Below are positions 7,762-30,700 of a stretch of DNA of 33,496 nt, piece by piece. The translations under genes were made by a program, and so were the position numbers. This DNA is from Halorientalis persicus (GTDB taxonomy: Archaea > Halobacteriota > Halobacteria > Halobacteriales > Haloarculaceae). Where the stretch lies: assembly GCF_900110215.1 (NCBI RefSeq), contig NZ_FOCX01000033.1, positions 1-33,496 of the forward strand. Direction: 5' to 3'. Every line of letters starts with the position of its first letter. Positions within the stretch are counted from its first letter, which is position 1. The notes under the pieces were generated by a model. It ran no database searches. It was given only the letters and a program-made list of their open reading frames with translations, and was not told where the DNA came from.

Positions 7762-7820
7762 CGGTCGAGTCGAAGACGCTCCGGCAGTTGAAGATGACGG
7801 TCCCCCGACGAAGAGAAGAG

Positions 7821-7828: not shown

Positions 7829-7849
7829 CGTCCCAGACGTGTTTCGGCT

Positions 7850-10042: not shown

Positions 10043-10128
10043 GTCAGAGACGACACAGCCACATCGGCTGTATTCACTGTTCCCAGAGGGCAGAAAGCTG
10101 ACTGGGAAGTGGATTGAACCTGTAGTTC

Positions 10129-11046: not shown

Positions 11047-11097
11047 ACGCTCGTCATATCAAGAGGCTTTTGACACCCACACGACAAAGACTCCCCA

Positions 11098-14664: not shown

Positions 14665-15956
14665 GTACGATATACGTCCACGGACTCGGTTACATCGGAT
14701 TGCCGACAGCGGCGATGTTCGCCAATTACGACCACGAGGTTACCGGATACGACACTGACGAGGCAGTTATCGAAGGCCTCGACGATGGCAACGTCCACAT
14801 CGATGAACCCGGGCTCAGAGCGTTCGTGACCCAGGCGCTCGAATCCGGCAACTTGACTGTGAGTAACGAGGTCGACGAGGCAAAGTATCACATCATCGCC
14901 GTTCCCACGCCGTTCGACGACGAGACCAAAGAGCCGACACTTGAGTACGTGGAGGCCGCCGGCGAAGCTATCGCCCCTCACCTCCGGCCCGGTGATACGG
15001 TTATCCTCGAATCGACTGTTCCGCCGGGTACGACCGTCGAAACGCTACAGCCGGCCCTCGAACAGTCCGGACTAGATGCGGGTTCGGATTTCGCGCTCGT
15101 CCACTGTCCCGAGACCGTCCTCCCGGGGAACATTATTACAGAGCTCAAGGAGAACGACCGCATCATCGGCGGCGTCAACGGTGTATCAACTGAGGCCGCA
15201 GTACGGCTGTACGAGTCCTTCGTCGAGGGCGATATCTATACGACCGAGAACGCGACGACGGCCGAGTTCGTCAAGCTCATCCAGAACACCTACCGTGATG
15301 TCAACATCGCGCTAGCCAACGAACTGGCGCTGATCGGCGAGGACTACGGTATCGACTCCCGTGAAGCCATAGAGATGGCGAACACCCATCCTCGGGTCGA
15401 TATTCACCACCCGGGACCGGGCGTCGGTGGCCACTGTCTTCCGATCGACCCCTGGTTCCTCGGCCAGAATTCGGATAATCTTGATCTCATCGAACGGGCT
15501 CGAGCGATCAACGATGGAATGGCCGATCACGTCGTCGAAACGTTGCGAGACGAGTTGGGATCGCTCGAAGGACGGACGATCGCTGTGTTCGGCGTCGCAT
15601 ACAAAGGGAACGTCGGGGATACCCGACAGAGTCCCGGACTGGATCTCGCACAGGCGCTCCAGAAAGCCGAAGCGGAACTGGCGAGTCCGAAGCCCGACGG
15701 CGGCGTACCACCTTCGGCCGTCGGCGTTCGGCTCCACGATCCGCACGTCGCGGATCAGACCCTCGATCTCGTCGATCGCAAGTCAGCGATCGCCGGTGCC
15801 GACGCAGTCGTGATCACCGCAGATCACGACGAATTCGAGCATCTGGATCCCGCCGCGTTCGCCGACGCGATGGCCGAGCGGGTCGTCGTCGACACGAAGG
15901 ACGTTCTCGACCCGTCCGAGTGGAAGTCGGAAGGCTTCTCAGTCCGCCGTATCTGA
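14661..15956 (+). CDS. wecC: UDP-sugar 6-dehydrogenase, probably UDP-ManNAc dehydrogenase (WecC/AglM-like)
   Basis: The ATG at 14661 gives 431 residues beginning MSTIYVHGLGYIGLPTAAMF with an NAD-binding Rossmann motif. The longer frame from 14625 lies wholly within wecB and is rejected. Catalytic features are FVKLIQNTYRDVNIALANELALI near residues 200-222 (Lys and Asn) and the nucleophile Cys259 in GVGGHCLPIDPWFLG. A C-terminal Rossmann-like domain includes VFGVAYKGNVGDTRQSP. The enzyme oxidises C6 of a UDP-sugar twice with NAD+. The wecB neighbour suggests UDP-ManNAc to UDP-ManNAcA, although UDP-glucose or UDP-GlcNAc dehydrogenase cannot be excluded by eye. Confidence 0.9.
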   Translation: MSTIYVHGLGYIGLPTAAMFANYDHEVTGYDTDEAVIEGLDDGNVHIDEPGLRAFVTQALESGNLTVSNEVDEAKYHIIAVPTPFDDETKEPTLEYVEAAGEAIAPHLRPGDTVILESTVPPGTTVETLQPALEQSGLDAGSDFALVHCPETVLPGNIITELKENDRIIGGVNGVSTEAAVRLYESFVEGDIYTTENATTAEFVKLIQNTYRDVNIALANELALIGEDYGIDSREAIEMANTHPRVDIHHPGPGVGGHCLPIDPWFLGQNSDNLDLIERARAINDGMADHVVETLRDELGSLEGRTIAVFGVAYKGNVGDTRQSPGLDLAQALQKAEAELASPKPDGGVPPSAVGVRLHDPHVADQTLDLVDRKSAIAGADAVVITADHDEFEHLDPAAFADAMAERVVVDTKDVLDPSEWKSEGFSVRRI

Positions 15957-15964
15957 ATCCGGTC

Positions 15965-17014
15965 ATGGCCACCCCTACCGCATGGGTCGATCTCGCCAGT
16001 CCCTCGCACCCGTTCTTTTTCAAATCGCTGTCCGATGGCCTCCCAGACGTCGAGGTTCGAACGACCGTTCGGGACAAGACGGAGACCGTCGATCTGACGA
16101 GAGAAGTCGGATTCGAATACGACGTCGTCGGACGCGACTTCGATAACACGCTCCTCCGGAAAGTCGGGATTCCGCTTCGGACCGGGCAGCTCGCGCTATC
16201 CGCACCCGACGCGGATGTCTCGCTCTCGTCCCGGAACGCGATGTGTATCCTCGCCTCGAAGGCGCGCGGAATCCCGTCGATTCACTTCACGGACAACGAT
16301 ATCACGGCACACGTGGACGGGCTCACCTCCGAAAAGCTGTATAACCGACTGGAAGCGATGGCGACACACAACGTCGTCCCGGCCGCCTTTGAGACGACGG
16401 AATTGACCAAGCGTGGAGCCGATCCCGATAGTATCCATACATATGATGGATACAAAGAGGACATCTACATCGCCGGTTTCGACCCCAACCCGGAGTTCAC
16501 TGACCAGTTCCCGTTTGAGGAGTACATCGTGGTGCGCCCGGAGGCACTCGATGCCGCCTACGTCGACGCCGAGCGCTCGCTGGTCCCCGAACTCCTCGCT
16601 GGAGCCGCCGAACGCGACCTCCCCGTAGTGTATCTGCCACGCGGACGCGGCGACGAGGCGTACGCGGATCCGTACGACGGCGACGAGGTGTACGTCCCCG
16701 ACAGCGCGCTGAACGGATTGCAACTGGCGTGGCATTCCCGGTGTATGCTCACCGGGTCGGGGACGATGGCACGCGAGGCGGCATGTATGGAAAAACCGGC
16801 CGTCTCCTTCTTCCCAAACACGCTGTTATCCGTGGACCAAGAGTTGATAGCAGATGATAGAATGAAACATTCCAGAGACGTCGATGAGATTCTGGAGTTC
16901 ATAGACTCCCTCACCTCTTCTGATGTAGAGCCCGATCTGTCTGGATCTAAGCGGGTCTCGAATGAGGTGGCAAAGTTGGTTACCAGATTAATAGACAATT
17001 CGGCCAAGAACTGA
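15965..17014 (+). CDS. DUF354 glycosyltransferase-like protein
   Basis: From ATG 15965 the protein has 349 residues and follows the dehydrogenase by 8 bp. DUF354 proteins have a GT-B fold similar to UDP-GlcNAc 2-epimerase and occur in archaeal glycan loci. Visible patterns are VDLASPSHPFFFKSLSDGL at the start, IHFTDNDITAH near 103-113, YDGYKEDIYIAGFDPNP near 143-159, YIVVRPEALDAAYVD, and LTGSGTMAREAACMEKPAVSFFP near 257-279, a donor-binding type motif. GC content falls sharply after the last motif: 16741-16800 is 38/60 GC and 16861-16920 is 27/60. The last 70 codons therefore look foreign or recombinant. Activity is unknown. Confidence 0.85.
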   Translation: MATPTAWVDLASPSHPFFFKSLSDGLPDVEVRTTVRDKTETVDLTREVGFEYDVVGRDFDNTLLRKVGIPLRTGQLALSAPDADVSLSSRNAMCILASKARGIPSIHFTDNDITAHVDGLTSEKLYNRLEAMATHNVVPAAFETTELTKRGADPDSIHTYDGYKEDIYIAGFDPNPEFTDQFPFEEYIVVRPEALDAAYVDAERSLVPELLAGAAERDLPVVYLPRGRGDEAYADPYDGDEVYVPDSALNGLQLAWHSRCMLTGSGTMAREAACMEKPAVSFFPNTLLSVDQELIADDRMKHSRDVDEILEFIDSLTSSDVEPDLSGSKRVSNEVAKLVTRLIDNSAKN

Positions 17015-17108
17015 ATTTATACATTTATACCAGCATAATGATCACTACGCCAGAATCGTATTGTATGAATAGGCTTATGAACGATAGAACTCTGCTGATA
17101 GATTAATA

Positions 17109-18113
17109 ATGCCCGTTGATTTTACGCAGTGGGTTGACGAGTTCCGGGAGAACTTTTGTGACTCCCCTAAACGTGCGATCATGCAGGCTCTTTGGTGTTC
17201 TTATCTCGGACTGTGGTTCACTGTAACATCGCGGTTCACTTTCGGTCAAAAAATATACGAGCGCGATTGGGATGCGCTCATACTCTTGGATGCATGCCGC
17301 TCTGATGCGTTGAGAGAGGTAGCTCCGGAATATGACTTTCTTGACCAGTCGGAGATAGAGTCGGTCTGGTCTGTGGGCAGTGGGTCACTGGAGTTCATGT
17401 GTAAGAATTTCACGTATGAATACGAAGACCAAATCAACGAGACTGTTTACACTGCTGCGAACGGATTTCTGAACCGAGCGTTCGTTGAGCACGAGTATGC
17501 ACCCAGCGTAGCCATTCCATTTGGATGGCCCAGATACAATGTAGTGAGGGCGGATGATTTCAAAGAACTCACTAATGTTTGGGACTCCCGGTACTCGGAG
17601 CAACTAAAGAATGTCCCTCCCTGGGAAATGACAGATGCGGCTATCTCTGCGGGGCGTCGTAATCCCGACGCGAGTAGGTATATTTTCCATTTCACTCAGC
17701 CGCATATCCCCCATATCAGCGAGGCAGTTGAAGAGGAACGATCGGTAACCGAAAAAGAAGCTGACCCTTGGAAGTACATTCGACGCGGTGATCTTAGCTA
17801 TGAGGTGGCGTACGAACGATATCTAGATAATCTCCGAATAGTGCTGGACAATGTGGAGACTCTCCTGGAAAACTTGGATGTAGATACGGCTGTGATATCT
17901 GCTGATCATGGCGAAGCCTTTGGGGATTGGAGAATTAACGGTCACCCGACCGCCTTCCCACATCCTAATGTAAAGAAGGTCCCATGGATAGAGGTGACAG
18001 CAGAGGACCGTAATACTCGCCAACCCGAACCTATCCCAGAGGAAGTAAACAATTGCAAATCGATTTCAGAATCTACTGTACAGCAACAACTTGAAGACCT
18101 CGGATATATATGA
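17109..18113 (+). CDS. Sulfatase/alkaline-phosphatase superfamily protein
   Basis: The 334-residue protein has the pattern of this superfamily. RDWDALILLDACRSDAL at about residues 49-65 is the metal/nucleophile strand, FHFTQPHIPH near 196-205 is the usual second motif, and VISADHGEAFGDW near 258-270 gives the D-H-G metal ligands. The nucleophile candidate is Cys in DACRSDA. The formylglycine consensus C-x-P/A-x-R is not met, so a classical sulfatase is unlikely. A phospho- or sulfo-group transfer or hydrolysis on the glycan is possible. Its stop overlaps the following ATG by 4 bp (18110). An AGGCTTATGA near 17071-17080 is a candidate TATA region. Confidence 0.8.
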   Translation: MPVDFTQWVDEFRENFCDSPKRAIMQALWCSYLGLWFTVTSRFTFGQKIYERDWDALILLDACRSDALREVAPEYDFLDQSEIESVWSVGSGSLEFMCKNFTYEYEDQINETVYTAANGFLNRAFVEHEYAPSVAIPFGWPRYNVVRADDFKELTNVWDSRYSEQLKNVPPWEMTDAAISAGRRNPDASRYIFHFTQPHIPHISEAVEEERSVTEKEADPWKYIRRGDLSYEVAYERYLDNLRIVLDNVETLLENLDVDTAVISADHGEAFGDWRINGHPTAFPHPNVKKVPWIEVTAEDRNTRQPEPIPEEVNNCKSISESTVQQQLEDLGYI

Positions 18114-20032
18114 AGACTGGGCTGCGAAAGTATTCCACAACCGCGCTAAAAGATTATAAAATACTCTCTATAATCGCTATTATTCTTGGAATAGTCGGAA
18201 CCTCACTCAATATCGTCGTTACAAACCCCTATATTGTGACTTTTCCACCCGCCTTGTTAATTTCTGGACTGATTAGCTATACGACTGAGTACAGAGCAAA
18301 TCAACCTACGCTATCCCCAGATTTAGGTATCAAACCACTACTCTCTCTCCACCTCTTTATTAGCGCACTAATCATAGTCCTATTTAGTTTGACAAAAACC
18401 CGGGGAGAGATAGTCTTACTACTGTCTGCAGTACTCGTTGGCCTAACAGCACTCTCGATCGTCAAAACTGACAACCTCTATTTTCAGCTCGCGCTGATAC
18501 TGTTAACCGGCCTCGTAATTCGTGCAACTATATTATTCTCATCGCCTGTTCCTCTGGGAAATGATACACTCTTCCACCAAAGAATGGCGGGAGAGATTGC
18601 ACAAGCAGGTGATCTTGTTCCCTTAATTGAAGAAAACTCGAAACACTTCGATATACCGCTCTATCACGTGTTTGTCTCATCTGTTGTAATACTAGTGGAC
18701 CTGGACCCACAGCTTAGTTCTTTTATCGGCATAACTATTCCGAGTCTGGTTGTACCAGCACTGGTTGTTACCTGGATAGTAAACCGGCATTTTGACTCGA
18801 CCGCTGCGGCTATCTCTGCTTTCCTGGTCGTCACCACCGATTCAGTCATTCGGTGGAGTATCACACCCTCTACGACTACGTACGGATTCATACTTGGTGT
18901 GCTGATACTAATGACAGTGATTTTGCAGCGGGAGCACAGAATTCGCTATATATTCGCTTTCTTGATTATCGCACTTACCTTCTCACATCAGACTACCAGC
19001 GTTATAACCCTATCAATTGTCATATTATACGCTATTGGAAAGGTTTTGTCAGAAGATGAAATACACATCACTACACCAATTCTATTTGGTCTATTAGTAA
19101 TCGGATCGTTTCTTTTTGCGCGAATTAATGGACCAGGTGGGGACTTGACCGTCCTGGGAAAGCTAGCTTTGGTCATCGGGTCGTCTATTCAATTACTATC
19201 CGTTGACACAGGTGCCAGCTTTCAGATTCCACCGATGGTCAATGCACAACCGGGAGGGACAGCCTCTCTGTCTTCTATTCAAGTCCTCGGACCTGCCCTG
19301 TTATTTCTATTCGGAACGATCGGCTCACTCACTGTTTTAAGATCTGATTCTATTTCGGATCACGCCTGGAACCAGATCTACAAACTTCTCTTGGTTGCGG
19401 CAGGACTCTTTATACCAATATTTATCGGCCCACTAGTTGGGTTCACTCTACTTCTCCCGTACCGCTGGTTCCCATTTGCGTATTTTGTCCTTGCAATACC
19501 AGCGTCTCTCGGGTTGATAGTAATTAGTAAAAAAATTCCGTCAATCTCGTCTGGCTACTTAATTCTGGCATTGCTATTAGTCTCCGGACTTGTTATGGGA
19601 GGAAACTACTTCGGCAGCTATGAGGATCCAGTGTTTGATGAGGATCCGGGCGCGATTCGCTACGAATACACTGAACAAGAAGTGAGTATGTTCTACCATG
19701 CAGCCAGATATTCAACTGGGCCCGTTCGTGGCGACACTGTAGCAACGATAGTGGTAAATCGCCATTTTGACACTAAGACTGCTCGAGGGTTACACTACAA
19801 CTATGACAAGCGGGGGTATTCTGGTGTTCCCCGGGAAACCCTCGTCATTGACCGACCATATGCCCATACAAACCACGCGTGGTATTGGCTAACGTATAGG
19901 GGGAAAACTGGATCAGTCATCGGTGAGTTACCTCGAAATGCACTAAGCTGTGCTGAAGATATCGTTTATGATTCAGGAGGTGAGAGGTATAATGGACACC
20001 TTCTACGCTATACGCGGACTTCCTGCTACTGA
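18110..20032 (+). CDS. Large polytopic membrane protein, GT-C-like
   Basis: The 640-residue protein has about a dozen hydrophobic segments through residue 500, then a soluble extracellular C-terminal domain of about 140 residues. The early loop PLGNDTLFHQRMAGEIAQAGDLVP near residue 148-171 has D152 and H156, resembling the acidic first-loop motif of GT-C glycosyltransferases that use lipid-linked sugars. It is translationally coupled to the sulfatase-superfamily gene (ATGA overlap at 18110-18113). I infer transfer of a sugar from a dolichyl-phosphate donor on the outer face, or a polymerase role. No closer family is identified. It is AT-rich like the rest of the cassette. Confidence 0.6.
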   Translation: MKTGLRKYSTTALKDYKILSIIAIILGIVGTSLNIVVTNPYIVTFPPALLISGLISYTTEYRANQPTLSPDLGIKPLLSLHLFISALIIVLFSLTKTRGEIVLLLSAVLVGLTALSIVKTDNLYFQLALILLTGLVIRATILFSSPVPLGNDTLFHQRMAGEIAQAGDLVPLIEENSKHFDIPLYHVFVSSVVILVDLDPQLSSFIGITIPSLVVPALVVTWIVNRHFDSTAAAISAFLVVTTDSVIRWSITPSTTTYGFILGVLILMTVILQREHRIRYIFAFLIIALTFSHQTTSVITLSIVILYAIGKVLSEDEIHITTPILFGLLVIGSFLFARINGPGGDLTVLGKLALVIGSSIQLLSVDTGASFQIPPMVNAQPGGTASLSSIQVLGPALLFLFGTIGSLTVLRSDSISDHAWNQIYKLLLVAAGLFIPIFIGPLVGFTLLLPYRWFPFAYFVLAIPASLGLIVISKKIPSISSGYLILALLLVSGLVMGGNYFGSYEDPVFDEDPGAIRYEYTEQEVSMFYHAARYSTGPVRGDTVATIVVNRHFDTKTARGLHYNYDKRGYSGVPRETLVIDRPYAHTNHAWYWLTYRGKTGSVIGELPRNALSCAEDIVYDSGGERYNGHLLRYTRTSCY

Positions 20033-20212
20033 GTTTATCTGGACTTAAACTCAAAGTGTATGTGCGCTTGTTCAAAAGCGAGTGATATTCATCTCCTCCT
20101 CCATGTCTAATATGTCTATCTGAATTGGCAAAGTTCATTGCCTCGTTAATATAGCTTCCATACAACACAGATCTCCAAGACAACGAATGTATAGCAGCTA
20201 CTTCATCTAAAT

Positions 20213-21625
20213 ATGAGATTTAAAAGAGAGATAATAACGGTATTCGGCTCTTCGATTCTCCGAAATGTCGCCACTTTTGTTGCTGTGGCCTATTTCTCCA
20301 GAGAGTTGGGCCTGGCCACCCTTGGTAGCTTTTTCCTCTTCCAATCAATTCTGCTGACAGTTTCGATACCAGTTGATTTTGGGATAAAGATCGGAGTTGA
20401 GAAACGCATTAGCGAGGGAAATTCTCCTGCTGATACACTCGCTACAGCAATCGTGGTAAAATTTATTTTACTACTGTTGTCAATCGCTGCTATATTTGGA
20501 TTTAGTGGTGTAATAAACTCTTACGTGGGTGAAAACGTTGCTATCCTACTTGCTATTGCTCTGATTCTGAATGAGTTGGGCCAATTAGGAAAACACACAC
20601 TTCGAGGGGAACAACGGGTGGGGGTGGGAGCGATACTTCAATCCATTCAAACTTTGATTTGGGCCCTATTTGGTGTTGGCCTTACGTTATTGGGTTTCAC
20701 GAATTTTGCCCTCTTTTGGGCTTACCTGATAGGACTGTTCGTTATCTCCTTTTTCTATTGGTATCAGGTAGATACGAAAATAGGGAACCCATCAATATCC
20801 CATGCAAAGGCTATCGTAGGCTATTCAAAATTCGCACTAATCGGATCCCTTGGAGGATTAACATACAACTGGGCCGACATTATACTCTTGGGATTTTTCA
20901 TCTCTCAATCTGCAGTCGGCGCATACGAGGTCGCATGGCGGGTGTCTGCAGCGTCACTGCTGTTAACTAACGCTGTACGCACGACGGTTTTTCCGAAGGC
21001 AAACGAATTAGGCGAAAAAGGCGAGATCGAGCAGCTCGAACGTCTCGTCGAGTCATCCCTGATCCCTTCTTTTTATTTTGTTATCCCTGCTGCGATAGGA
21101 GGTTCAATTATTGGCGGCGAAATTCTATCTCTTGCATTCGAAGCGGAATACCCCTTGTTGAATATCGCACTGGTGATTTTATTGATCGAAAAGGTGCAGA
21201 GAGCCCTTCTGTTACCACTGATTGGGCCAATGCATGGAATCGGTCACGTAGACTATGGTGCATACACGACTATATTTGGACTTGTGACAAATATAATGTT
21301 TAATTTATTACTAATACCTCCGTTCGGAATTCTGGGAGCAGCAGTTGGGACTACTATAGGAAGCACCGCTACCACCACCTCATATGTTTGGTTGCTGTCG
21401 AATGAAATCTCGATATCAATTCCCACCAAAGAAATAATTTGGCTTGGTTTATCTGGGTCAGTTATGGGAGTAGCGATATTTACTGTAAAACCATTATTGC
21501 TCCCAATATCTCTGATTGATCTTACTGGAATTATAATTGGAGCCGCAATAGTATATATAGTAGCATCTCTATCAATTCGCAAAGTGCGAATTGAACTTCG
21601 AAATACTCTCCAATCGATCATTTGA
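20213..21625 (+). CDS. PST-family oligosaccharide flippase (Wzx/AglR-like)
   Basis: The 470-residue protein is hydrophobic throughout, with about 12-14 helices. It starts MRFKREIITVFGSSILRNVATFVAVAYFSRELG, a typical polysaccharide-biosynthesis (RfbX/Wzx) N-terminus with a following GLATLGSFFLFQS. The helix near the middle (VGAYEVAWRVSAASLLLTNAVRTTVFPKANEL) also matches this family. It should move a lipid-linked glycan from the cytoplasmic to the outer face before AglB acts. A 180-bp spacer separates it from the GT-C-like gene, and it is the last + gene before the minus-strand half of the locus. It resembles AglR in general type only; orthology not claimed. Confidence 0.85.
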   Translation: MRFKREIITVFGSSILRNVATFVAVAYFSRELGLATLGSFFLFQSILLTVSIPVDFGIKIGVEKRISEGNSPADTLATAIVVKFILLLLSIAAIFGFSGVINSYVGENVAILLAIALILNELGQLGKHTLRGEQRVGVGAILQSIQTLIWALFGVGLTLLGFTNFALFWAYLIGLFVISFFYWYQVDTKIGNPSISHAKAIVGYSKFALIGSLGGLTYNWADIILLGFFISQSAVGAYEVAWRVSAASLLLTNAVRTTVFPKANELGEKGEIEQLERLVESSLIPSFYFVIPAAIGGSIIGGEILSLAFEAEYPLLNIALVILLIEKVQRALLLPLIGPMHGIGHVDYGAYTTIFGLVTNIMFNLLLIPPFGILGAAVGTTIGSTATTTSYVWLLSNEISISIPTKEIIWLGLSGSVMGVAIFTVKPLLLPISLIDLTGIIIGAAIVYIVASLSIRKVRIELRNTLQSII

Positions 21626-22031
21626 GGACTCCGTTGAAAGCGGTATGCCGAGAGCGGAGAAACCAATCTAGTGAGTTGAAAAAGACGGTAGTTTTATGCT
21701 AGTGAGTACACCGTTATTTGATATAAGATCCACAGTTGTCGCTTGTTCAGAAGGCGACCGCTGGCTGCTAGCGATACCACGCCGCTTCCAATTGACTTTA
21801 AGTCACCGGGAGGACAAGTCCCTAGTCGCTACTCCCCACTTGCGGCGTGACGTTTCTTTTCGCCAGAACTTTTGATATAATATAATTTAATAAGTAACAG
21901 TATATAAGACGAAACGACTGACTGCATCAAAACGGTTACAAACTGTTGCGAGAAAGATTCTTGAGCCGATCTGAACAGCCAAAAGGGTGATACGGATTTG
22001 AAAAGCCTGCTGAGTCACCTTCATGCAAAAA
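21626..22031. other. Intergenic region between convergent genes, with a palindrome-rich patch
   Basis: This 406-bp gap separates the convergent flippase and methyltransferase genes. It holds no long ORF. The stretch 21740-21860 is locally GC-rich and full of inverted repeats: CACGCCGC (21778-21785) pairs with GCGGCGTG (21842-21849). Inside are TGACTT-T-AAGTCA and GGGA/TCCC arms, and just left is CGCT(7 nt)AGCG. It resembles the structured end of an IS200/IS605-type element or a small structured RNA. Both are candidates only. A 14-bp direct repeat TATAAGATCCACAG starts at 21722 and recurs at 22933. Confidence 0.4.
21778..21849. repeat. Nested inverted repeat, possible RNA hairpin or IS end
   Basis: Outer arms CACGCCGC and GCGGCGTG are 8 bp and perfectly complementary with a 56-nt interior. 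Interior arms GGGA and TCCC flank GGACAAG, and TGACTT-T-AAGTCA is a palindrome. The composition contrasts with the AT-rich surroundings. Read on the minus strand, it resembles right-end structures of IS200/IS605-type elements, but no tnpA or tnpB remains are seen. It could act as a bidirectional terminator for the convergent genes, although it lies 150 bp beyond the flippase stop. Confidence 0.35.
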
Positions 22032-22778
22032 TTATGATTCAGGTGGGTCATTCCGAGCTATATAATATTGGTACAGACCAAAATTTGGAGCGAGATTCCG
22101 TTCTGTAATAGCATCAGATATTGGCCGGAGTGTACGTTCTAATCCTGTATTGAAGCCCGGGAGTGAGTAATAACTACCTCGGGCCTCTTTTATTTGCAAA
22201 TCATTTAATATTGCATTTTTCAGTTCCTGAGGTGGTATCCAGTTCTCAACGAGTTGACCATCAGCACTTTCATACGCGCCGGTAAACTCAGCAAAATTAA
22301 GAATAAAATTCATAATACGAGAATATGGGGAATTTGGGTTTGGTGTTGATATAACCAGCCAGCCACCGCTGGTAAGAAGCCTTGTGATTTCTTCGATAGC
22401 AGCTAACTGTAGCGAACGCTCCGGAATATGTTCGATTACTTCAGAGCATACGACAAGATCAAAGGTTCCGGATTTGAATGGTAGGTATGGCAAAGCAGCT
22501 TCTGCAAAAGATGCATCCGTCTTTTCGATTGTTTCCTCCATGAGTGGTGGTTCTGTGATATCAATCGCCATCACATCCTCGAATCGGGTACTGAGAAAGG
22601 TCGTGTTCCGTCCAGAGCCAGAGCCGATGTCAATCACCGAGGCCGTACTGTCAAGGGGGATTTCGTCAACAAGCGAGTGAAGAATTTCATATCTCTGCTG
22701 ATTATCGTATGTAAGATCTGAAGCCTCGGAGAAGTACTCCTGATAAAACTCTCGTGATTGTCGCATCTCCTCGTTCAT
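22032..22778 (-). CDS. SAM-dependent class I methyltransferase
   Basis: The 248-residue protein has the Rossmann-type motif I VIDIGSGSGRN at residues 48-58, an acidic motif II residue in AIDITEPP (D73), and the post-motif FDLVVCSEVIEHIPE (106-120), typical of methyltransferase domain 11/25 proteins. It likely methylates a sugar hydroxyl in the glycan, as methylated hexoses are common on haloarchaeal S-layer glycans. Substrate cannot be read from sequence. It stands on the minus strand, convergent with the flippase. A TTATAT box (minus strand, 22801-22806) is 23-28 bp before the ATG, so the transcript should be leaderless. Confidence 0.85.
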   Translation of the reverse strand: MNEEMRQSREFYQEYFSEASDLTYDNQQRYEILHSLVDEIPLDSTASVIDIGSGSGRNTTFLSTRFEDVMAIDITEPPLMEETIEKTDASFAEAALPYLPFKSGTFDLVVCSEVIEHIPERSLQLAAIEEITRLLTSGGWLVISTPNPNSPYSRIMNFILNFAEFTGAYESADGQLVENWIPPQELKNAILNDLQIKEARGSYYSLPGFNTGLERTLRPISDAITERNLAPNFGLYQYYIARNDPPES

Positions 22779-23104
22779 ATATTATTGGGGGAGTGGAACA
22801 ATATAAGCTAATTTCGACTGTAGAATCTGACCCGGAAACATCGATACAACAGGCTGCGAATATTCGTCTTCGCCTGAGAGCACTCAGGTCTATTTAATGC
22901 GTTACTGCTGGCTATCGTTGAATAGTCACATGTATAAGATCCACAGGTTAACAATCTCTCCGAAATATATAAGATATTAAATCTTAGTAAGACATCCGCA
23001 TGTTTTTCAATCCACACTATTTGTGGGCGCATCACATATAGATGCCCCCAGGAGTATTGGTACTCCCTCTCACCCGAATGGGATATTAGTATCCAAGAAC
23101 AGGT
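22779..23104. other. Spacer between methyltransferase and GT4 genes
   Basis: The 326-bp spacer is AT-rich and contains no supported gene. It carries the methyltransferase promoter at its left end and the second copy of a 14-bp direct repeat (TATAAGATCCACAG, 22933-22946). TGAGAGCACTCA (22876-22887) is a perfect 12-bp palindrome. Confidence 0.4.
22801..22806 (-). promoter_or_regulatory. TATA box for the methyltransferase gene
   Basis: TTATAT (read on the minus strand, within GCTTATATTG) lies at -23 to -28 from the methyltransferase ATG at 22778. The spacing fits a leaderless archaeal transcript. Confidence 0.5.
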
Positions 23105-24286
23105 CTATTCATTGAGTACCGTCCTTTCGTGTTTGTCTACAATGATCTCCCAGTCATAATTCTCAGCAATTTTTAAACCACGTTTGCGGATATCTCGATT
23201 TTTCTCATTAGATTCGATCGCCTGCTCAAGAGTGTTTAACAGCCCTGGCTGAGTTCCATCGTAGAGATAGCCACTAACGCCATGTTCTATAAGGGACTCA
23301 TGGGCAGGTATTTCGGTGGCGATCACAAGACATTCTGCAGCCATATATTCTAGAATCTTTGCTGGGAAGCTGACTTGATACGACTCAATATCTTGAAGCG
23401 GGGAAATGGCGAAGTCAGCTGCGGAGAGTAGTTCCGGGACAGTCTCATGCGGAACTCGCCCCACCCACTCTATGCTATCCGTAACATCGCGGTCTACGGT
23501 CAGTTGTTTAAGGGAACTAACATACGCTTCCGGACCATCTCCAACTACCTTGAACTGCAGATCATGGTTACTGTTTGAGACAGTTTCGATCACATGTTCT
23601 ATGCCCCGGTTCTCTGTAATCGATCCCACATAGACTATTTCCCAACCGGTTTTGTTTTGAGTGGTAGTAGGGTTCTCTCTCGAAAACAAATCCAGATCTA
23701 CACCCATCCCGATTATCGTAGCATCTGACATATCCACTTCATACATCTCCTCAGTTAGACATCTGATTCCATCAGTCAAGCATATAATACGGTCACTCGA
23801 TTTCAAGATGTGACCAATGATCTTCGAATAAAGTTGATACCCGTATTTATATACGTACGATGAAATAGATCCCTCTCTGTCTCTCCCACTCAAAAAGTCC
23901 TGACTCTGCCTGACAGGAACAGATTGCAGCCCGGCTACTAATCTACCAGTAGAAAATTTGGATGCAACCCACCCTTGGATAAGAGACGACTGGAAACAGT
24001 ACACACAATCGTAATCACCTTTCAAAGAGATTATTGTCGACAGAATAGATGATATCAGAATAAAAAGAACCCCAGAAACGATAGGTGTATTACCGACATT
24101 AATCGCTGTCAAGTTCACGTCTTGAAGTGCTTCCCTGTTATGGCCATCGGGGTATTTTCGGCAAATAACACTGATTTCCTGAGATCGGGCCATCCTCTTG
24201 GTTAAGTTATGTGGAACTGTTGTTCCGACTGGATTCGTTACATCCTGATGGTGTATAAATAGGATGCTGTCCTTTTTTTGTACCAT
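23105..24286 (-). CDS. GT4-family glycosyltransferase
   Basis: The 393-residue protein is the usual size for GT4. The N-terminal domain has LFIHHQDVTNPVGTTVPHNLTKRMA, then VYCFQSSLIQGW. The donor domain has WEIVYVGSITENRGIEHVIE near residues 206-225, FKVVGDGPEAYVSSLKQL near 235-252, WVGRVPHETVPELLSAADFAISPL near 262-285, and KILEYMAAECLVIATEIPAHESLI near 298-321, with the E of the EAMA-type motif. It would add a sugar to the growing lipid-linked glycan on the cytosolic face. It has no immediate operon partner; gaps of 223 and 326 bp surround it. AT-rich. Confidence 0.88.
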   Translation of the reverse strand: MVQKKDSILFIHHQDVTNPVGTTVPHNLTKRMARSQEISVICRKYPDGHNREALQDVNLTAINVGNTPIVSGVLFILISSILSTIISLKGDYDCVYCFQSSLIQGWVASKFSTGRLVAGLQSVPVRQSQDFLSGRDREGSISSYVYKYGYQLYSKIIGHILKSSDRIICLTDGIRCLTEEMYEVDMSDATIIGMGVDLDLFSRENPTTTQNKTGWEIVYVGSITENRGIEHVIETVSNSNHDLQFKVVGDGPEAYVSSLKQLTVDRDVTDSIEWVGRVPHETVPELLSAADFAISPLQDIESYQVSFPAKILEYMAAECLVIATEIPAHESLIEHGVSGYLYDGTQPGLLNTLEQAIESNEKNRDIRKRGLKIAENYDWEIIVDKHERTVLNE

Positions 24287-24509
24287 GATGTATTAAGTGA
24301 TCAAGTTACAGCTAGTGTCGCAAAGCCGACTAGAGTTTATCTCTGGTTGATTCAACTGAGATGTCACAGCCCATTGCTGTTTTGGTCGATTGTTGTAGTA
24401 ACTTGTTAACTTAACCTAGTACAGTTAAGCCGAAGAAGTACTGATCAGGAACGGTAAGAGTAACTGCAGAAGCACGTTGAGAGGCGTAGATCGCAAATAC
24501 AGTTCCATA
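24287..24509. other. Spacer between two GT4 genes
   Basis: No ORF or clear promoter is visible here. GTTAACTTAACCTAGTACAG near 24405-24424 is AT-rich. The junction side at 24450-24500 is GC-richer. It may carry a promoter for the 24286 gene, but I could not identify a TATA box with confidence. Confidence 0.3.
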
Positions 24510-25448
24510 TCATTGACGACTCAGTGAACCGGAGAGGACCTCCTTGTATACGTCCAGAATTCTATCACCCATCGTTTCAAGACCGAATTTATCAGCTTCA
24601 TCTCGTCCGTTTGATCTGTCTCCCATAGATAGAACGGTTGTTAGTGCCGTTACTAACTCGTCATTCGTTGAGACGACTTCTGACGGAGTCACTCCACTTA
24701 GCATCTTTCTTATATTCCCTACGTCCCGTGAGATAACCGGGAGGTTACATGCCATAGCTTCTTTGACTGTATTCGGAGACCCTTCATTATCCGAGGTGAT
24801 CAACAGTGCATCGGCGGCGTTCATATAGAATGGCATCTCTTGATACTCGACATCGTATACAGCCTGCAACTTGACCCCTGTTTCCATTTTATCATCGACT
24901 TCATCGACAACGTCCTTTGCAAGTTGATAGTTTTTATTTCCTCTGTAGGGAGCATATGGAAAGAGAACGTGTTTCCCGTCATCCCACCCAACCCTCTCTC
25001 GAGATCTATCTCTGGGGTATGGCTTAAACTGGGCAAGATCAATACCGTGCGGAATAACGTAGGAGTCCACGGGCAGCTGTGAGGCCATCTCTTCAGTCAT
25101 GACAATTACTGCGTCGAAGTATTTTGCAGACTGTTTTCCCACTATGCCGTAGCTATCGTGTACGTCACTTCCCCAGAGTGATAGAACGATAGGCCGGCTT
25201 GGTTGAGCTATTGCGAACGGTCCGGTCAGCCCAAAATTCGCATGGACTATATCGTAGTCTCCCAAGGATTCCCTGAGAACATTTGGGTAGAAAGAGAGGT
25301 AATCGAAACCACTTCGGGAGTCAAATTGGTCTTCTCTCCCGGGTACCTGTAGCGTTACCTGTTCAATCCCTCTAGATTCCAATATAGATACCTGTTGTCT
25401 GTAGAATGGACGCGGGTCAGTAACTAAATTAAGTATTCTCAGGTCCAT
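24510..25448 (-). CDS. GT4-family glycosyltransferase (short)
   Basis: The 312-residue protein is shorter than most GT4 enzymes. It has VHANFGLTGPFAIAQ at about 69-83, LSLWGSDVHDSYG near 88-100, VIPHGIDLAQFKPYPRDRSRERVGW near 131-155, and the donor motif SDNEGSPNTVKEAMACNLPVISRDVG near 219-244. The ATG overlaps the formyltransferase stop by 10 bp (25439-25448), so this is the third gene of an operon with the deacetylase and formyltransferase. I infer that it adds, or acts directly after, the sugar that carries the N-formyl group. The specific donor is unknown. Confidence 0.88.
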   Translation of the reverse strand: MDLRILNLVTDPRPFYRQQVSILESRGIEQVTLQVPGREDQFDSRSGFDYLSFYPNVLRESLGDYDIVHANFGLTGPFAIAQPSRPIVLSLWGSDVHDSYGIVGKQSAKYFDAVIVMTEEMASQLPVDSYVIPHGIDLAQFKPYPRDRSRERVGWDDGKHVLFPYAPYRGNKNYQLAKDVVDEVDDKMETGVKLQAVYDVEYQEMPFYMNAADALLITSDNEGSPNTVKEAMACNLPVISRDVGNIRKMLSGVTPSEVVSTNDELVTALTTVLSMGDRSNGRDEADKFGLETMGDRILDVYKEVLSGSLSRQ

Positions 25449-26236
25449 TTCTCTTTCAAGATTCCTTTTGTATTTTTTAATATAAATAGTAGCACGGGCT
25501 TTCCTTTCGGGGTTGAATACAGCTGCCCAAGAGTTTTGGGTTCCTGAATATCACCATCTTGAACAGCACGTACAGCATCTATGATTACATCGTCTGAAGC
25601 CCGGTATAATTCCTGCTTGATCGACTCCCATGTGTACTGATCACTTATGTCAACAGTCTCTGATGCTGCTACCTTCCCTGCATCAAGTTCTTCAGTGAGC
25701 TGTTGTACAGTGACACCTGCGGTTTTTTCACCATGAATGAACTCCCAGAAGCCCATTGGACGACCACGGTATTCCCGTATATCACCGTGATGGTAGCTAA
25801 GAACACCATACTCTAATTCCGAAAGGATAGGCCCTACCAGGAACCCAAAGCCGAATCGAACACCGACATCGGCATGCTTTGCAGCTTTCTGGGCTGTTTC
25901 CGTTGGAATCTTTTGTTTCCAGCCATCAATTATTTCAGGTTTGACCGATATTTTATACAGATTGTCTGCATCTATGATTGTTTTTATAGGGACTTTTTCT
26001 TCACCCTTGATGTTGTCCGATGCTAAAGTGCTAACTATGTTAGCAACTGCCCACTCACGGATCTCGATACCACGTTTCACCGTCTCAAATAACGTCCGGG
26101 TATTCTGGTACTTGCTATACACTACCATTTTAATATCGATCCATTCACACTCTTTCAATTGTTCTACCGTATTTGCCTGCCACTGACAAACCTCTTTTCC
26201 ATCAACCAATAAACATACATCCATACAATTACTCAT
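25439..26236 (-). CDS. Formyltransferase-fold protein, likely sugar N-formyltransferase
   Basis: The 265-residue protein has the methionyl-tRNA-formyltransferase-type catalytic pattern. YHHGDIREYRGRP at residues 148-160 corresponds to NxHxSxLPxYRG, and GVTVQQLTEELDAGKV at 174-189 corresponds to the TGVTxHxMxxxxDxGxI loop with its catalytic Asp. The usual Asn is Tyr/His-shifted, so activity should be tested. It would move a formyl group from N10-formyl-tetrahydrofolate (or an archaeal equivalent) to an amino sugar. It overlaps the deacetylase by 8 bp and the GT4 by 10 bp. An alternative ATG at 26224 would remove four residues. It is not the housekeeping Met-tRNA enzyme, which archaea lack. Confidence 0.75.
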   Translation of the reverse strand: MSNCMDVCLLVDGKEVCQWQANTVEQLKECEWIDIKMVVYSKYQNTRTLFETVKRGIEIREWAVANIVSTLASDNIKGEEKVPIKTIIDADNLYKISVKPEIIDGWKQKIPTETAQKAAKHADVGVRFGFGFLVGPILSELEYGVLSYHHGDIREYRGRPMGFWEFIHGEKTAGVTVQQLTEELDAGKVAASETVDISDQYTWESIKQELYRASDDVIIDAVRAVQDGDIQEPKTLGQLYSTPKGKPVLLFILKNTKGILKEKWT

Positions 26237-27164
26237 ACATATCGGGAAGTTCTGACATTGTTTTAATCATAAGATCACTCTCCTGTATACCATCTAAATA
26301 ATCAAAGTATTTATCGATGACTTCCCACTGGTGCTCATTGCTTAGGTCGTACAGATGACACCACAGGTGGAGTGGTGTCCCTGAAAGAAATGCACGTTTG
26401 GTTGACTTTTTCAGATACTGTAGATGGATCTTTTTACGTAGTGAGACTGGAATCGGTCGAAATACAGGGTGAATCTTGCTGGACTGTCCAGCAGGGAGTG
26501 TCCCCGCGGTCAAAGACGGATATCTTGTACAGTAAGTCTCGAGGATACCATCACTAAACTTCGGCTCCCACATCGGATGGGGACCGATAGTTAATTGCTT
26601 AAGTCGGTGTAGTGGTGTGAGAGTCTTATTCTCCTTAGCATACCGTGCTACTTTGATTCCGTTCTGTTTGAGGGTCCTATTAGAAGGTTGCCGGTGGCGA
26701 GGCGGAACAAAAGACCTTACTACTTCATTGTGTAGATGTTGGTGAAGTTCCTGTATCTGTTGCAGTTCTTTTTCTATTAGCTCATTTGAAGCATCATCAC
26801 AGAGGATATGGGAGAACGTATGTGTACATAATTCGTGATTAGCATTCGATCCAAGAACTTTATTCGCTATGTCTGGTGCATAGAAGAGAGGGTCAGACCT
26901 CTTGTCGGTTCCTGAATCTGCCTGAAACCACCCCTCTGGATATGGTCCATCATGATTCCCATCACACTCAGATAAAAGGAGATGCCCAACGATATCAAAT
27001 GAGATAGGTATATCAATTTCCTCACTCTTTTCTATAATTTTGTCAAGATACTTTCGCTCTTCTTTCCCATCCTCTGACAAGTGGCTGCTTTTACGGATAT
27101 CATGAACACCCCATCCTAGTTCAACTTCGATACTAATTGTTAACGTTGACATGGTAAGTGCCAA
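26229..27164 (-). CDS. Polysaccharide deacetylase-like (CE4/NodB-type) protein
   Basis: From ATG 27164 the protein has 311 residues; an alternative ATG at 27152 is possible. It starts with ISIEVELGWG, the strand that in this family carries the DD/ExE-type catalytic acid, followed by HELCTHTFSH at about residues 110-119 (H-x4-H metal site) and FVPPRHRQP near 152-160 (PxRxxxG-like). It likely removes an N-acetyl group from a lipid-linked or nucleotide sugar. Overlap with the formyltransferase stop (8 bp) makes a deacetylate-then-formylate pair likely. The TATA box at 27187-27194 favours the 27164 start. AT-rich. Confidence 0.75.
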   Translation of the reverse strand: MALTMSTLTISIEVELGWGVHDIRKSSHLSEDGKEERKYLDKIIEKSEEIDIPISFDIVGHLLLSECDGNHDGPYPEGWFQADSGTDKRSDPLFYAPDIANKVLGSNANHELCTHTFSHILCDDASNELIEKELQQIQELHQHLHNEVVRSFVPPRHRQPSNRTLKQNGIKVARYAKENKTLTPLHRLKQLTIGPHPMWEPKFSDGILETYCTRYPSLTAGTLPAGQSSKIHPVFRPIPVSLRKKIHLQYLKKSTKRAFLSGTPLHLWCHLYDLSNEHQWEVIDKYFDYLDGIQESDLMIKTMSELPDMYE

Positions 27165-27186
27165 ATTGGAAGCATTCTAGTTTGTA

Positions 27187-27194
27187 CATATAAT
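27187..27194 (-). promoter_or_regulatory. TATA box for the deacetylase operon
   Basis: ATTATATG (minus strand of CATATAAT at 27187-27194) lies 23-30 bp before ATG 27164. This fits a leaderless transcript for the deacetylase-formyltransferase-GT4 operon and favours the longer start. Confidence 0.5.
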
Positions 27195-27228
27195 CTTATT
27201 GTCTATACATACATTAATAGGTTGGTAT

Positions 27229-29598
27229 TTAATTTGGGATTCGCTCAGGCCCGGAATTGTCACCCTGGGACGGATCTGTGTCTACTCTTTCCCCAGACAA
27301 TATATCACTGACGGTAACATTGTATGTTGAACCTCTGACCTCATAACTCCCCGGATATGAAACGACTACATGGAACTCACCGGTTGAGTCCACGTTAGTA
27401 CTCCTTCTATAGGATATTTTTTGGGACTCAATACGGACAGTTGTATTTATAGCAATCGTTGTGTTAGGAGTCGCAGTTCCGACAAATCGCACTCCCGGCA
27501 CTACTCGGAAAGCTTTTTTCGAACCATTGTTAGTTTGTCCGATAAACATGAAGTGACCTGATCCCTCCACGGACTCACTTGTGCTTCCGAATTGGTGGTG
27601 GAGGAGTTGATGAACTGAGTCTCTGGGTGAATCTCGCTGCTCTGTGACGATGAATCCGACACGGTCCATGTTGTTTCGGGCCCACTGGTCCGGATCCTGG
27701 TTCAGTAATAGGCCATGGTATGTTCTCCGGGCATAATCGTATGATTTGGACTCCCCGTTGACGAAGTAATTATAGACTCTGTTATCGCCCCAGTTACTGA
27801 GTACATAATTACGAGGATACTCTAACTCCTGCTGATCGGTATATTCAGAAATTTGCATCGACATCTGGTATGTATCCTCATCAACGGAGATTTGAGCTGT
27901 CTTCACGTACGTCTGCAATAGTCCCATACCGGCGAACAACAGAAATACTACAGCAAGCAGAGCGATCGAATGACGGTCTGGGAAGTGCAAATTCCGCGTT
28001 TTGTTACTGAATATCTCCTTTGATCGGGCGAGATCGACGCTTTCTGAAATATGGACTAGTCCAACTCCGGCGAAGATAGCGATGAATAACGAAAGTTCTC
28101 CTGAAAACCGTAATTTGACAATGGAGAGAGCGAACAGATACCATGTAAATGATACTGGGACAAGCCATGTAGGCTGACTTTCTCTGTATACTCGCAAAGT
28201 CACCAACCCAAGGAATGGGAGTGCGAGAAAGAGGAACAGACCGAATACCAAGACTGGCCCGAAAATCGAACCGAGCTCACCTGAGAATATTGATTGTGTC
28301 TCGGCAATATTATTCCGTACGGTAAGAAAGGTTACAAGCTGGTCTAAAGATCCTCTCAGGGCGGGCGCTCCGACCCAAATCGCCATGGGTCCTACAATAA
28401 TCATCGATACAAAAATCGCGGATAACTCACTGGCAGTTCGATCATATCGGAGCCAGGTTTCACCGAGTATAACTGCGCCCAACCCACCGACAAACAGCAA
28501 TAGAGGAGCAATTCCACGGTATAGGGCCATCCAATCAAGATAGTTGTAAGCCAGAAACGTAGGGACACTCCCAATAAACAATCCAAGCAATATTGACTGA
28601 TTATTTAATAATGGCGAGATACCTGATCGAACGTCATCTAACACACGCCCAAGAACGAAAATACCAATCGGAACCAGAAGCAATGGACCACCACGCCAAG
28701 CGGCAGTCTGTGTGAATACGCCAATTCCAAGGCAAATAATTCCCAGTGGCGTGACCCAATTTGGCCACGCTCTCTCGGATTTGTTTGCGGCCAATACTGT
28801 AAGCGCGAGTGCCATCAGCCCCAGCCAAACGAAGTCGAACGCGTGGTGGTCGCCGAACCCAAGGGCTGTCCGATAGGCGTGGGCGGGTGTGACCGCCAGC
28901 GTCACCACCGACGCGAATCCGACCCGCCTGTCGTTCGTGACGGTAACTGCCAGGAGATACACCAGTACCCCGGAGAGCACAGCGGCGATCACTGGATACC
29001 ACGCCAAGACAAGCCCCGACGCGGTCTGGCCGTCGCCGAGCAGGCTCGCGGCCCACCAGGTGACCACAATCAACAGGATGTCGCTGTTCGCCGCGTCCAC
29101 GGGCAGCCGCGTGAGCGAGCCGGGATCAAACGCCTGGAGATCGCTCGCGAGCAAGGTATCGATCCAGTAGCGGTAGTAGTAGGGATCGTTGCCCGCCAAT
29201 ACGACGTGTTCACCGCGAAAGACGCTGTTCCACATGAAGACGATCCGCACTAGCGCGACGAAAGCCAGCGCACCACCAACCAAGAGGACCACCCGTCGAT
29301 CTACTTCCGGAACAGAGAGATCCGACAGCGAAAACCCTTGGTCGGGTTCTTCGTCGGGCTCGACCGACTCGCCGTCGAGTGCGGCACGAATGGCCTCTCT
29401 ATCCGCTACTTGATACCCGTCGTCGACTTCCTCGACAATACCACGTGAGACGACTTCACCGAACGTACCGGAGTCAAGCGAGATTTCGTCGAATGTCCAA
29501 GGTTCCTCGTCATCGACGTCCAGAAGCGCTTCGAGATCAGATTCGAGGTCGGGTTTCTCTGCGAGGAGCGAATCTACCACCTCGCGTACGTCGTCCAT
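27229..29598 (-). CDS. aglB: Archaeal oligosaccharyltransferase STT3/AglB-like, divergent
   Basis: The 789-residue protein has a cytosolic N-terminus (1-100), then about 13 helices, then an extracellular C-terminal domain. The first-loop acidic motif is GNDPYYYRYWIDTLL (136-150; D138). GDHH lies at 249-252, and the EL5 segment is AETQSIF (432-438), with R497 in KLRFSGELSL as a candidate sequon-binding arginine. In place of WWDYG there is SNWGDNRVYN (601-610). The catalytic fold is intact by eye, so transfer of lipid-linked glycan to Asn in NXS/T is likely. The N-terminus resembles a winged-helix domain. GC drops near 28,780 (residue about 273), so the gene looks chimeric. It is the terminal enzyme of the locus. 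Confidence 0.85.
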   Translation of the reverse strand: MDDVREVVDSLLAEKPDLESDLEALLDVDDEEPWTFDEISLDSGTFGEVVSRGIVEEVDDGYQVADREAIRAALDGESVEPDEEPDQGFSLSDLSVPEVDRRVVLLVGGALAFVALVRIVFMWNSVFRGEHVVLAGNDPYYYRYWIDTLLASDLQAFDPGSLTRLPVDAANSDILLIVVTWWAASLLGDGQTASGLVLAWYPVIAAVLSGVLVYLLAVTVTNDRRVGFASVVTLAVTPAHAYRTALGFGDHHAFDFVWLGLMALALTVLAANKSERAWPNWVTPLGIICLGIGVFTQTAAWRGGPLLLVPIGIFVLGRVLDDVRSGISPLLNNQSILLGLFIGSVPTFLAYNYLDWMALYRGIAPLLLFVGGLGAVILGETWLRYDRTASELSAIFVSMIIVGPMAIWVGAPALRGSLDQLVTFLTVRNNIAETQSIFSGELGSIFGPVLVFGLFLFLALPFLGLVTLRVYRESQPTWLVPVSFTWYLFALSIVKLRFSGELSLFIAIFAGVGLVHISESVDLARSKEIFSNKTRNLHFPDRHSIALLAVVFLLFAGMGLLQTYVKTAQISVDEDTYQMSMQISEYTDQQELEYPRNYVLSNWGDNRVYNYFVNGESKSYDYARRTYHGLLLNQDPDQWARNNMDRVGFIVTEQRDSPRDSVHQLLHHQFGSTSESVEGSGHFMFIGQTNNGSKKAFRVVPGVRFVGTATPNTTIAINTTVRIESQKISYRRSTNVDSTGEFHVVVSYPGSYEVRGSTYNVTVSDILSGERVDTDPSQGDNSGPERIPN

Positions 29599-29609
29599 AT
29601 TGGGTTAGA

Positions 29610-29624
29610 CCCTGAGTCTCAGGG
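29610..29624. promoter_or_regulatory. 15-bp odd-centred palindrome, candidate operator of aglB
   Basis: CCCTGAG-T-CTCAGGG lies between the aglB TATA box (29626-29633) and its ATG (29598), overlapping the expected transcription start. A repressor dimer could bind here, or the short leader could fold into a stem. The site is separate from the divergent epimerase remnant. Confidence 0.45.
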
Positions 29625-29625
29625 G

Positions 29626-29633
29626 AATAAAGC
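29626..29633 (-). promoter_or_regulatory. TATA box of aglB
   Basis: GCTTTATT (minus strand of 29626-29633) is centred about 32 bp before ATG 29598, so a transcript start near 29604 is expected, leaving a very short leader. Confidence 0.5.
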
Positions 29634-29769
29634 CACCGAAGCAAGTCATCTCCGCAACCACTTCGTGTCGAGTGGTTCGAAACACAATCTGATTCTGCGA
29701 CAGATATTCGATCGGAGCGGAGAATACGTGCGCTTCGTGTTTGAATGCGAAGACATACAGGAAAAGTGC

Positions 29770-30700
29770 GTGCTTGTGACAGGAGGTGGGGGGGTTTATT
29801 GGTTCGAATCTGGCGAACCACCTAGCGGCCGACAACGAGGTGATCGCGCTGGACGACGGCTACCTCGGGACGCCCGAGAACCTGGACGACAGCGTGGAGT
29901 TCGTTGAGGCGAGCGTCCTCGAGGTAGACCTCCCCGTCGACGTGGACGCCGTCTTCCTCCTGGCGGCGCTGTCCTCGCTCCAGATGCACGAGGACGACCC
30001 ACAGCGTGGCGCTTCGCGTCAACGTCGAGGGGTTCGTTAACACCGTCGAACAGGCCCGCTAGGCCGGGTGTGAGACAGTCGTCTACGCCTCGACTTCCTC
30101 AATCTACGGCAGTCGGACCGAACCCTCGCCCGAGGATATGCTCGTCGCCACGAACACCGGTTACGAGGCCTCCAAGCTCGCCCGTGAGCGCTACGGCGAG
30201 TACTTCGCCAACTACCACGACATCAATATGGCGGGCCTGCGCTTTTTCTCGGTCTATCAGGGCTACGGCGGCGCGGAACAACACAAGGGCGAGTACGCCA
30301 ACGTCATTGCGCACTTCGGAGACGACATGGCCAACGGCGAGTCGCCGGTCCTGTACGGCGACGGCGAGCAGACACGGGATTTCACCACGCCGACGACATC
30401 GTGCGCGGCATCGAGACGACCGCCGACCACGAGTTGACCGGCATCTACAATCTGGGCACTGGCGACGCCTACTCGTTCAACACCGTCGTCGAGATGCTCA
30501 ACAACGAACTGGGGACCGACATCGACCCCGAGTACGTCGAGAACTCGATCCCCGAGGACGTGTATGTCCACGACACCTGCGCGGACTACTCGAAGATCCA
30601 CGCGGCGACGGGCTGGGAACCCGAGGTCGATTTCGAAGAGGGCATCGAGCGCGCCTGTGCCCAGTATACCAATACTGCCCCGGACTCAGGTGTCGGTTAG
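29770..30700 (+). pseudogene. NAD-dependent sugar-nucleotide epimerase/dehydratase pseudogene
   Basis: An extended short-chain epimerase can be rebuilt across three frames. It has CVLVTGGGG-FIGSNLANHL (NAD site), then VNVEGFVNTVEQA, SSIYGSRTEPSPED (catalytic-region Ser), TGYEASKLARERYGEYF (YxxxK), LRFFSVYQGYG and IYNLGTGDAYSFNTVVEML. Four lesions break it: one extra G in a run of seven (29779-29785), an extra T near 30013, a TAG at 30060-30062 (probably from CAG), and a missing C near 30384. The normal relatives act on UDP-glucose, galactose or related sugars. Its start is uncertain. It overlaps the end of the regulator gene by 15 bp. The intact ancestor may have served this glycan locus. Confidence 0.85.

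Follow-up and report, generated by a model that had tools for sequence, protein, structure and literature searches.

The 33,496-nucleotide stretch of the Halorientalis persicus genome analysed here (the window) very probably carries a surface-glycan replacement island that has been swapped between haloarchaeal lineages through homologous recombination. The edges of the exchanged DNA lie inside genes, these genes are hybrids, one exchanged tract is nested within another, and relatives carry the same locus. Two operons, assigned from gene order and spacing, converge and meet at approximately 21.6–22.0 kb. The plus-strand operon has the order DUF1616-GT2-wecB-wecC-DUF354-(334 aa)-(640 aa)-wzx, and the minus-strand operon the order aglB-deacetylase-formyltransferase-GT-GT-methyltransferase. 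The features are the following (G261, G372 and G378 are other genomes):

11098..12123, plus strand: DUF1616 gene, head of the plus-strand operon (PF07760, 4.2e-121)
12218..13516, plus strand: family 2 glycosyltransferase (PF00535, 6.3e-27; 66–68% amino acid identity to G261/G372)
13549..14664, plus strand: wecB-like UDP-GlcNAc 2-epimerase (PF02350, 5.6e-114)
14625..15956, plus strand: wecC-like UDP-sugar dehydrogenase (PF03721/PF00984/PF03720)
15920..17014, plus strand: hybrid DUF354 gene, 364 residues (PF04007, 1.4e-26)
16856..28826, no strand: inner AT-rich cassette, 44.6% GC
17109..18113, plus strand: unannotated 334-aa protein, no Pfam hit
18110..20032, plus strand: 640-aa protein with multiple membrane passes, no family hit
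20213..21625, plus strand: Wzx-type flippase (PF13440, 5.1e-16)
22032..22778, minus strand: SAM methyltransferase (PF08241, 1.8e-16)
23105..24286, minus strand: GT4 glycosyltransferase (PF00534, 1.2e-22)
24510..25448, minus strand: GT4-like glycosyltransferase (PF13692, 6.1e-10; 51% to G378)
25439..26236, minus strand: formyltransferase (PF00551, 3.5e-11; 48% to G378)
26229..27164, minus strand: polysaccharide deacetylase-like protein (PF01522, 2.4e-5; 56% to G378)
27229..29598, minus strand: predicted aglB-type oligosaccharyltransferase gene, 789 residues, three-part mosaic

Several products of the cassette can be assigned only a putative role. The 334-aa protein, in which LDACRSD and ADHGEAFGD motifs were spotted by eye, may be sulfatase/alkaline-phosphatase-like; its homologues (28–39% identity) lie in other glycan loci. 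The 640-aa protein, with homologues at 24–35% in L130, L148 and G016, is a possible candidate for a GT-C-type glycosyltransferase or polymerase. Neither protein gave a meaningful match to solved structures. The formyltransferase is probably a sugar N-formyltransferase, and G378 also has a deacetylase-formyltransferase pair, with a GT4 gene and a homologue of the 640-aa protein adjoining it, suggesting that this module may make an N-formylated sugar. Traces of mobile elements and pseudogenes occur near the cassette: an IS, an epimerase pseudogene, and an IS-like remnant of 84 bp (24315–24398). The IS has an 11-bp duplication, GCCACGAAGAC, at 31788/33201. No tRNA was found within the window; a candidate at the contig end was rejected because ARAGORN detected no tRNA either at this place or in G372. 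The 86-bp contig end, present in several copies per genome, looks like the end of a mobile element.

The GC content of the cassette (16856–28826) is 0.446, compared with 0.605 (13700–16855) and 0.606 (28827–30500) in its flanks. Maximum-likelihood analysis placed the left change point at 16,783 (support 16,762–16,861; LLR 48–66) and the right one at 28,742 (support 28,638–28,851; LLR 22 when aglB is scanned alone, and 57 when scanned over a wider region). Both lie inside open genes, DUF354 and the STT3/AglB-type gene, and the GC profile is thus stepped and not smooth. An earlier sequence-only reading of this DNA had counted GC in sampled 60-bp blocks and proposed an AT-rich cassette with one edge in the 3' part of DUF354 and the other in aglB near residue 273. 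Recounting reproduced its values of 38/60, 41/60, 19/60 and 21/60, and gave 22/60 instead of 23/60 for the block 18121–18180. The interior is lower in GC than the flanks, as proposed, with a range of 39–50% per 500 bp in place of 32–45%. The left edge proved to be where it had been put (change point at 16,783, end of identity at 16,854), and the right edge is indeed inside aglB, nearer residue 257 than 273. Further low-GC stretches are present in the window at 0.75–3.4 kb, 11.75–13.7 kb and 30.75–31.5 kb, together with an additional GC step of 0.126 near 10.02 kb. Therefore, composition alone is insufficient proof of exchange.

G261 and G372, which belong to another genus of the same family, share the locus: DUF1616-GT2-wecB-wecC-DUF354, a variable middle, and aglB on the opposite strand. 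In blastn comparisons the window matched both genomes over 12639–16854 (75–76%) and from 28828/28831 to 29599 (67–69%), with a single short match (67%) between the inner edges; apart from short motifs, the cassette (16856–28826) had no DNA match to relatives. If the middle had been swapped, the sequence-only reading expected conserved flanks with an abrupt loss of identity, and this is what the alignments with G261 and G372 show: the flanks end at 16,854 and 28,828–28,831, and identity does not extend across either inner edge. The two relatives themselves are 82% identical in DNA up to the DUF354 stop codon and 78% over the full aglB. On the left, identity was lost at 16,842–16,848 against G008, G037 and Natronomonas gomsonensis, and on the right at 28,823 against G002, a genome of the same genus as the window. 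Dozens more genomes match the window solely up to 16,839–16,855 and from 28,802–28,823. Loss of the match at the same points in so many genomes marks a general end of conserved stretches, and controls were therefore required. Indeed, both edges coincide with points where a conserved stretch ends in every homologue, which would fit vertically inherited genes whose 3' parts drift AT-ward beside the cassette, so that the edges are gradients of conservation and composition formed in the absence of any crossover. The finding that the GC3 of the 3' part of aglB tracks downstream GC in 55 genomes fits this explanation as well. However, control pairs of equal N-part identity do not show a comparable drop. 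In DUF354, amino acid identity between the window and G261/G372 decreased from 88% (residues 60–312) to 35%/42% (residues 312–360), whereas in 19 control pairs with a first part 80–90% identical the second part stays at 60–81%. The reading frame is open across the join, and the crossover range is approximately 16,783–16,855, DUF354 residues ~288–312. No exceptional conserved block adjoins this edge (rank 55/348). The GC3 step in DUF354 is weak (LLR 5.0, no higher than in homologues) and was dropped as evidence on its own, as similar steps occur in homologues. The DUF354 tail and the stretch after the GDHHAF motif of AglB are variable in all homologues, which inflates the raw identity drop.

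The protein encoded at the right edge matched the AglB_L1 (1.2e-5), STT3 (2.7e-5) and TIGR04154 (1e-31, below its cutoff) families. As it scores 110 bits where TIGR04154, the archaeosortase-associated AglB subfamily, requires 450, it is a divergent AglB-type paralogue outside this subfamily. Its GNDP and DHH motifs align with the solved AglB structure 3waj_A, GDHHAF being aligned to LGFNDHH; we take DHH to be the catalytic metal-binding motif. A candidate equivalent of WWDYG, SNWGDN at residue 601, was identified by eye. From these domains and motifs the gene is predicted to encode an STT3-type oligosaccharyltransferase. Identity between the window and G372 decreased from 66% (residues 66–258) to 40% (residues 258–775), whereas in 20 control pairs with a first part 65–70% identical the second part stays at 52–64%. 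Against G261 (63% to 40%), the second-part value lies at the lower bound of the corresponding control band (40.5–61.8% for 60–65% pairs), and the comparison with G372 therefore carries most weight. A maximum-chi-square scan located a break at residues 256–257 (28,827–28,830) with either relative (0/1000 permutations), and no break at these residues in the G372-G261 comparison. The GC3 of the gene is 0.60–0.82 over residues 1–258 and 0.40–0.56 thereafter; it is low over all 530 downstream codons, conserved catalytic blocks included, and no gradient precedes the step, which argues against gradual drift. Of 60 homologues, G016 alone shows a stronger step. The reading frame is open across this join too. 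The inner right crossover falls at the end of residues 244–259 (28821..28869, minus strand), the 16-codon block with the highest conservation in aglB (rank 1/773), just past GDHHAF.

Comparison with G002 revealed a second pair of edges further out. The left flank common to both genomes, 872..11470, comprises the MoxR/DUF58/DUF4129 region and the 5' part of DUF1616, with blastn identities of 90% (872–4910), 78% (5010–10042) and 84% (10938–11885), and of 98–100% at 11341–11460. Nucleotide identity in DUF1616 is 91–99% over residues 1–124 and then falls from 78 to 52%, which locates the outer left crossover near 11,470 (residue ~124); between G372 and G261 this gene is steadily 77–86% identical. 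The right flank common to G002, 29400..30584, comprises the aglB 5' end, the aglB promoter region and the epimerase pseudogene. Per 60 bp, identity is 80–97% over 29,401–29,760, across the aglB start, mostly 78–98% beyond, and 57–67% inside the edge (29,221–29,400). AglB residues 1–66 are 86% identical to the G002 gene and 64–68% to those of G372/G261, and residues 66–258 are nearest to G372/G261. The outer right edge, at ~29,400, adjoins the sixth-ranked conserved block (residues 54–69). Between the outer edges, the ~25 kb present in G002 differ from those of the window and include a separate, full AglB-type gene, and the G002 aglB copy at the outer right edge is a frameshifted remnant. These outer steps against G002, from 98–99% to 78% on the left and from 87% to 57–59% on the right, are again not what a gradient of conservation would produce, and we consider that explanation improbable. 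Altogether, the alignments indicate that aglB is a three-part mosaic, in which residues 1–66 are resident (G002-like), residues 66–257 resemble G372/G261, and residues 258–789 represent an AT-rich divergent allele. The locus as a whole is likewise nested, with resident ends, a G261/G372-like middle layer and an AT-rich core. The edge genes are thus chimeric, as the sequence-only reading had anticipated: their parts differ in closest relatives or are of very different divergence. The swapped middle that it had proposed is borne out for the AT-rich block, which is however nested within a larger tract exchanged relative to G002, ~11.47–29.40 kb.

Given the frequency of IS elements and pseudogenes in the vicinity, we considered that the hybrid genes are accidental products of homology-assisted illegitimate joining or of IS-mediated insertion. 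This is very unlikely, because neither inner edge bears an IS or a repeat, the two hybrid genes are still in frame and in alignment register, and each replaced part is a homologous allele of the gene in question. Integrase, tRNA and IS hallmarks were looked for at 16.85 and 28.83 kb, and none were found. An assembly chimaera formed from two related organisms is least credible of all. The genome is a draft of 121 contigs with an estimated contamination of 4.1%, but such an artefact would need two in-register joins in coding sequence that leave both genes open, between alleles that are too divergent for k-mer joining (~50% nucleotide identity past the join). Moreover, a comparable intragenic step is present in G016 on a 400-kb contig.

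To analyze the origin of the incoming DNA, trees were built of AglB residues 66–258 and 290–775. The window grouped with G372 and G261 in both (support 91 and 98), and its distance to them increased from 0.73–0.85 to ~1.74, with that between G372 and G261 steady at 0.3–0.4. The same grouping with a much longer branch indicates that the C-terminal part of AglB is derived from an allele that is divergent but belongs to the same type of locus. The topological conflict expected between the two halves was not found; only branch length differs, and the claim of exchange therefore rests on divergence and composition and not on a different sister group. No high-identity donor of the AT-rich part was found among 146 family genomes (best 41%). 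A near-identical copy of the island in a divergent genome, a supporting sign in some described cases only, was found in none of 392 order and 146 family genomes, and the locus is therefore not an example of recent exchange. Scanning named genomes with AglB alone gave no matching locus, and scanning them with DUF354 retrieved loci, but no DUF354-cassette-aglB architecture within ±10 kb other than those of G261 and G372. Plasmid collections contained just distant AglB-type genes.

We infer homologous double crossover as the most economical account of these observations, because the hybrid genes are in register and crossovers lie beside conserved blocks. Recombination in the flanking genes, as first suggested from the sequence, is supported to this extent. 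In both operons, crossovers within genes close to the resident end would have exchanged the distal half for that of an AT-rich, divergent allele of this locus. Because the operons converge and the edges are near their resident ends, promoters and start codons would be kept and everything distal replaced; DUF354 and aglB would thereby have become in-frame hybrids that retain the resident promoter regions and start codons, and the incoming genes could be expressed at once from resident promoters. The order of events would include at least 2 nested rounds, an outer one at ~11.47–29.40 kb (DUF1616 and aglB) and an inner one at ~16.85–28.83 kb (DUF354 and aglB), and an altered surface glycan would be the consequence. 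A point against homologous exchange is that recombination at 70–80% identity should be rare.

A comparable edge is found in a third genus. In G016, an AT-rich cassette of ~13 kb lies between a wecC-like gene (left) and aglB (right), and at codon 633 of this aglB the GC3 drops from 0.76 to 0.39; no close aglB is present in its own genus. In G022, aglB shows a smaller GC3 step at codon 670. Across 55 aglB genes, the difference in GC3 between the 5' and 3' parts correlates with downstream GC (rho -0.60, kinship ignored). The two steps and this correlation suggest that aglB may serve repeatedly as a point of exchange. We tentatively propose, as a possibility with the odds against it, that aglB is a recurrent exchange hinge, at which crossovers beside conserved catalytic blocks swap the C-terminal part together with the cassette behind it.

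Variable glycan islands were said by the sequence-only reading to be known in haloarchaea, and published work agrees (PMC4033161, PMC4535781, PMC5867893). Replacement flexible genomic islands swapped by homologous recombination have been described in aquatic prokaryotes including Haloquadratum walsbyi (Lopez-Perez et al. 2014, PMC4033161). Like these, the locus is a surface-structure cluster at a fixed position with differing content, recombination in similar bordering DNA and a recombination signal inside boundary genes. It occupies the same position with shared flanks in G002, G261 and G372; glycosyltransferases, a flippase and AglB-type genes are found in each, although these interiors have little or no DNA similarity to the window; and breaks lie in DUF1616, DUF354 and aglB. 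However, the described islands differ between strains of one species and show border peaks of mostly synonymous SNPs, whereas the window shows exchange between distant lineages, hybrid cassette genes as edges, and two nested exchanges. Cell-wall genomic island 1 of H. walsbyi, diversified via homologous recombination and mobile elements (PMC4535781), is likewise a mosaic haloarchaeal surface island, but at a different locus and with different content; a text search of that paper found no mention of an oligosaccharyltransferase. In Haloferax, aglB lies at the edge of variable N-glycosylation clusters and has undergone within-gene recombination events (PMC5867893), as in the window. The Haloferax case is within a genus, whereas the window aglB is a three-part mosaic with its inner edge on the border of an AT-rich cassette. 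The locus thus joins the known haloarchaeal replacement islands as an unusually well-resolved case.

Viruses have access to the surface glycans of haloarchaea, which also play a part in mating, and the swapping of whole glycan clusters at fixed loci has been only partly resolved so far. Here, crossover positions are narrowed to ~100–200 bp, and to tens of bp where the identity to relatives is used. In the arrangement described, incoming genes would inherit resident promoters, and the predicted glycan-transferring enzyme would be built from three sources. The comparable edge in another genus makes aglB testable as a general exchange hinge. If it is one, every new glycan would come with a partial rebuilding of the predicted oligosaccharyltransferase, whose resident promoter and N-terminus would be retained.

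At the same edge, the same-genus genome sharing the outer flanks of the window (G002) retains a broken aglB remnant (L040:14429-15600, on G002:C2), which consists of a 332-aa frame followed by a frameshift, with homology reaching approximately residue 356, and which adjoins a cassette different from that of the window. An independent AT-rich glycan cassette (35-50% GC) was observed in a genome of another genus (G016:C3:28000-52000, L182 and L184); its edge falls within aglB, where GC3 drops from 0.76 to 0.39 at codon 633.

Five further features were considered in the window:

10043-10937, stretch with a DUF433 gene, between DUF4129 and DUF1616
24315-24398, intergenic stretch of approximately 84 bp separating two glycosyltransferase genes
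29768-30666, frameshifted NAD-dependent epimerase pseudogene
31788-33211, insertion sequence with DUF772 and DDE_Tnp_1 transposase parts
33411-33496, 86-bp terminal sequence of the contig

G002 lacks the DUF433 stretch and, at the corresponding place, the insertion sequence. The latter is flanked on both sides by an 11-bp direct repeat (GCCACGAAGAC), its transposase ORFs are split or frameshifted, and several haloarchaea carry near-identical copies (89-96%). A paralogue 87% identical to the epimerase pseudogene is present on G000:C48, and most of the searched Halobacteria have relatives of it. No tRNA was predicted in the contig end, repeats of which occur in several haloarchaeal genomes (85-98% identity); in G372, a genome of another genus of the family carrying the same locus, this sequence lies immediately upstream of aglB. 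Within the cassette, the intergenic stretch is 79-84% identical to repeated sequences of many haloarchaea, frequently close to contig ends, and is probably a mobile-element end.
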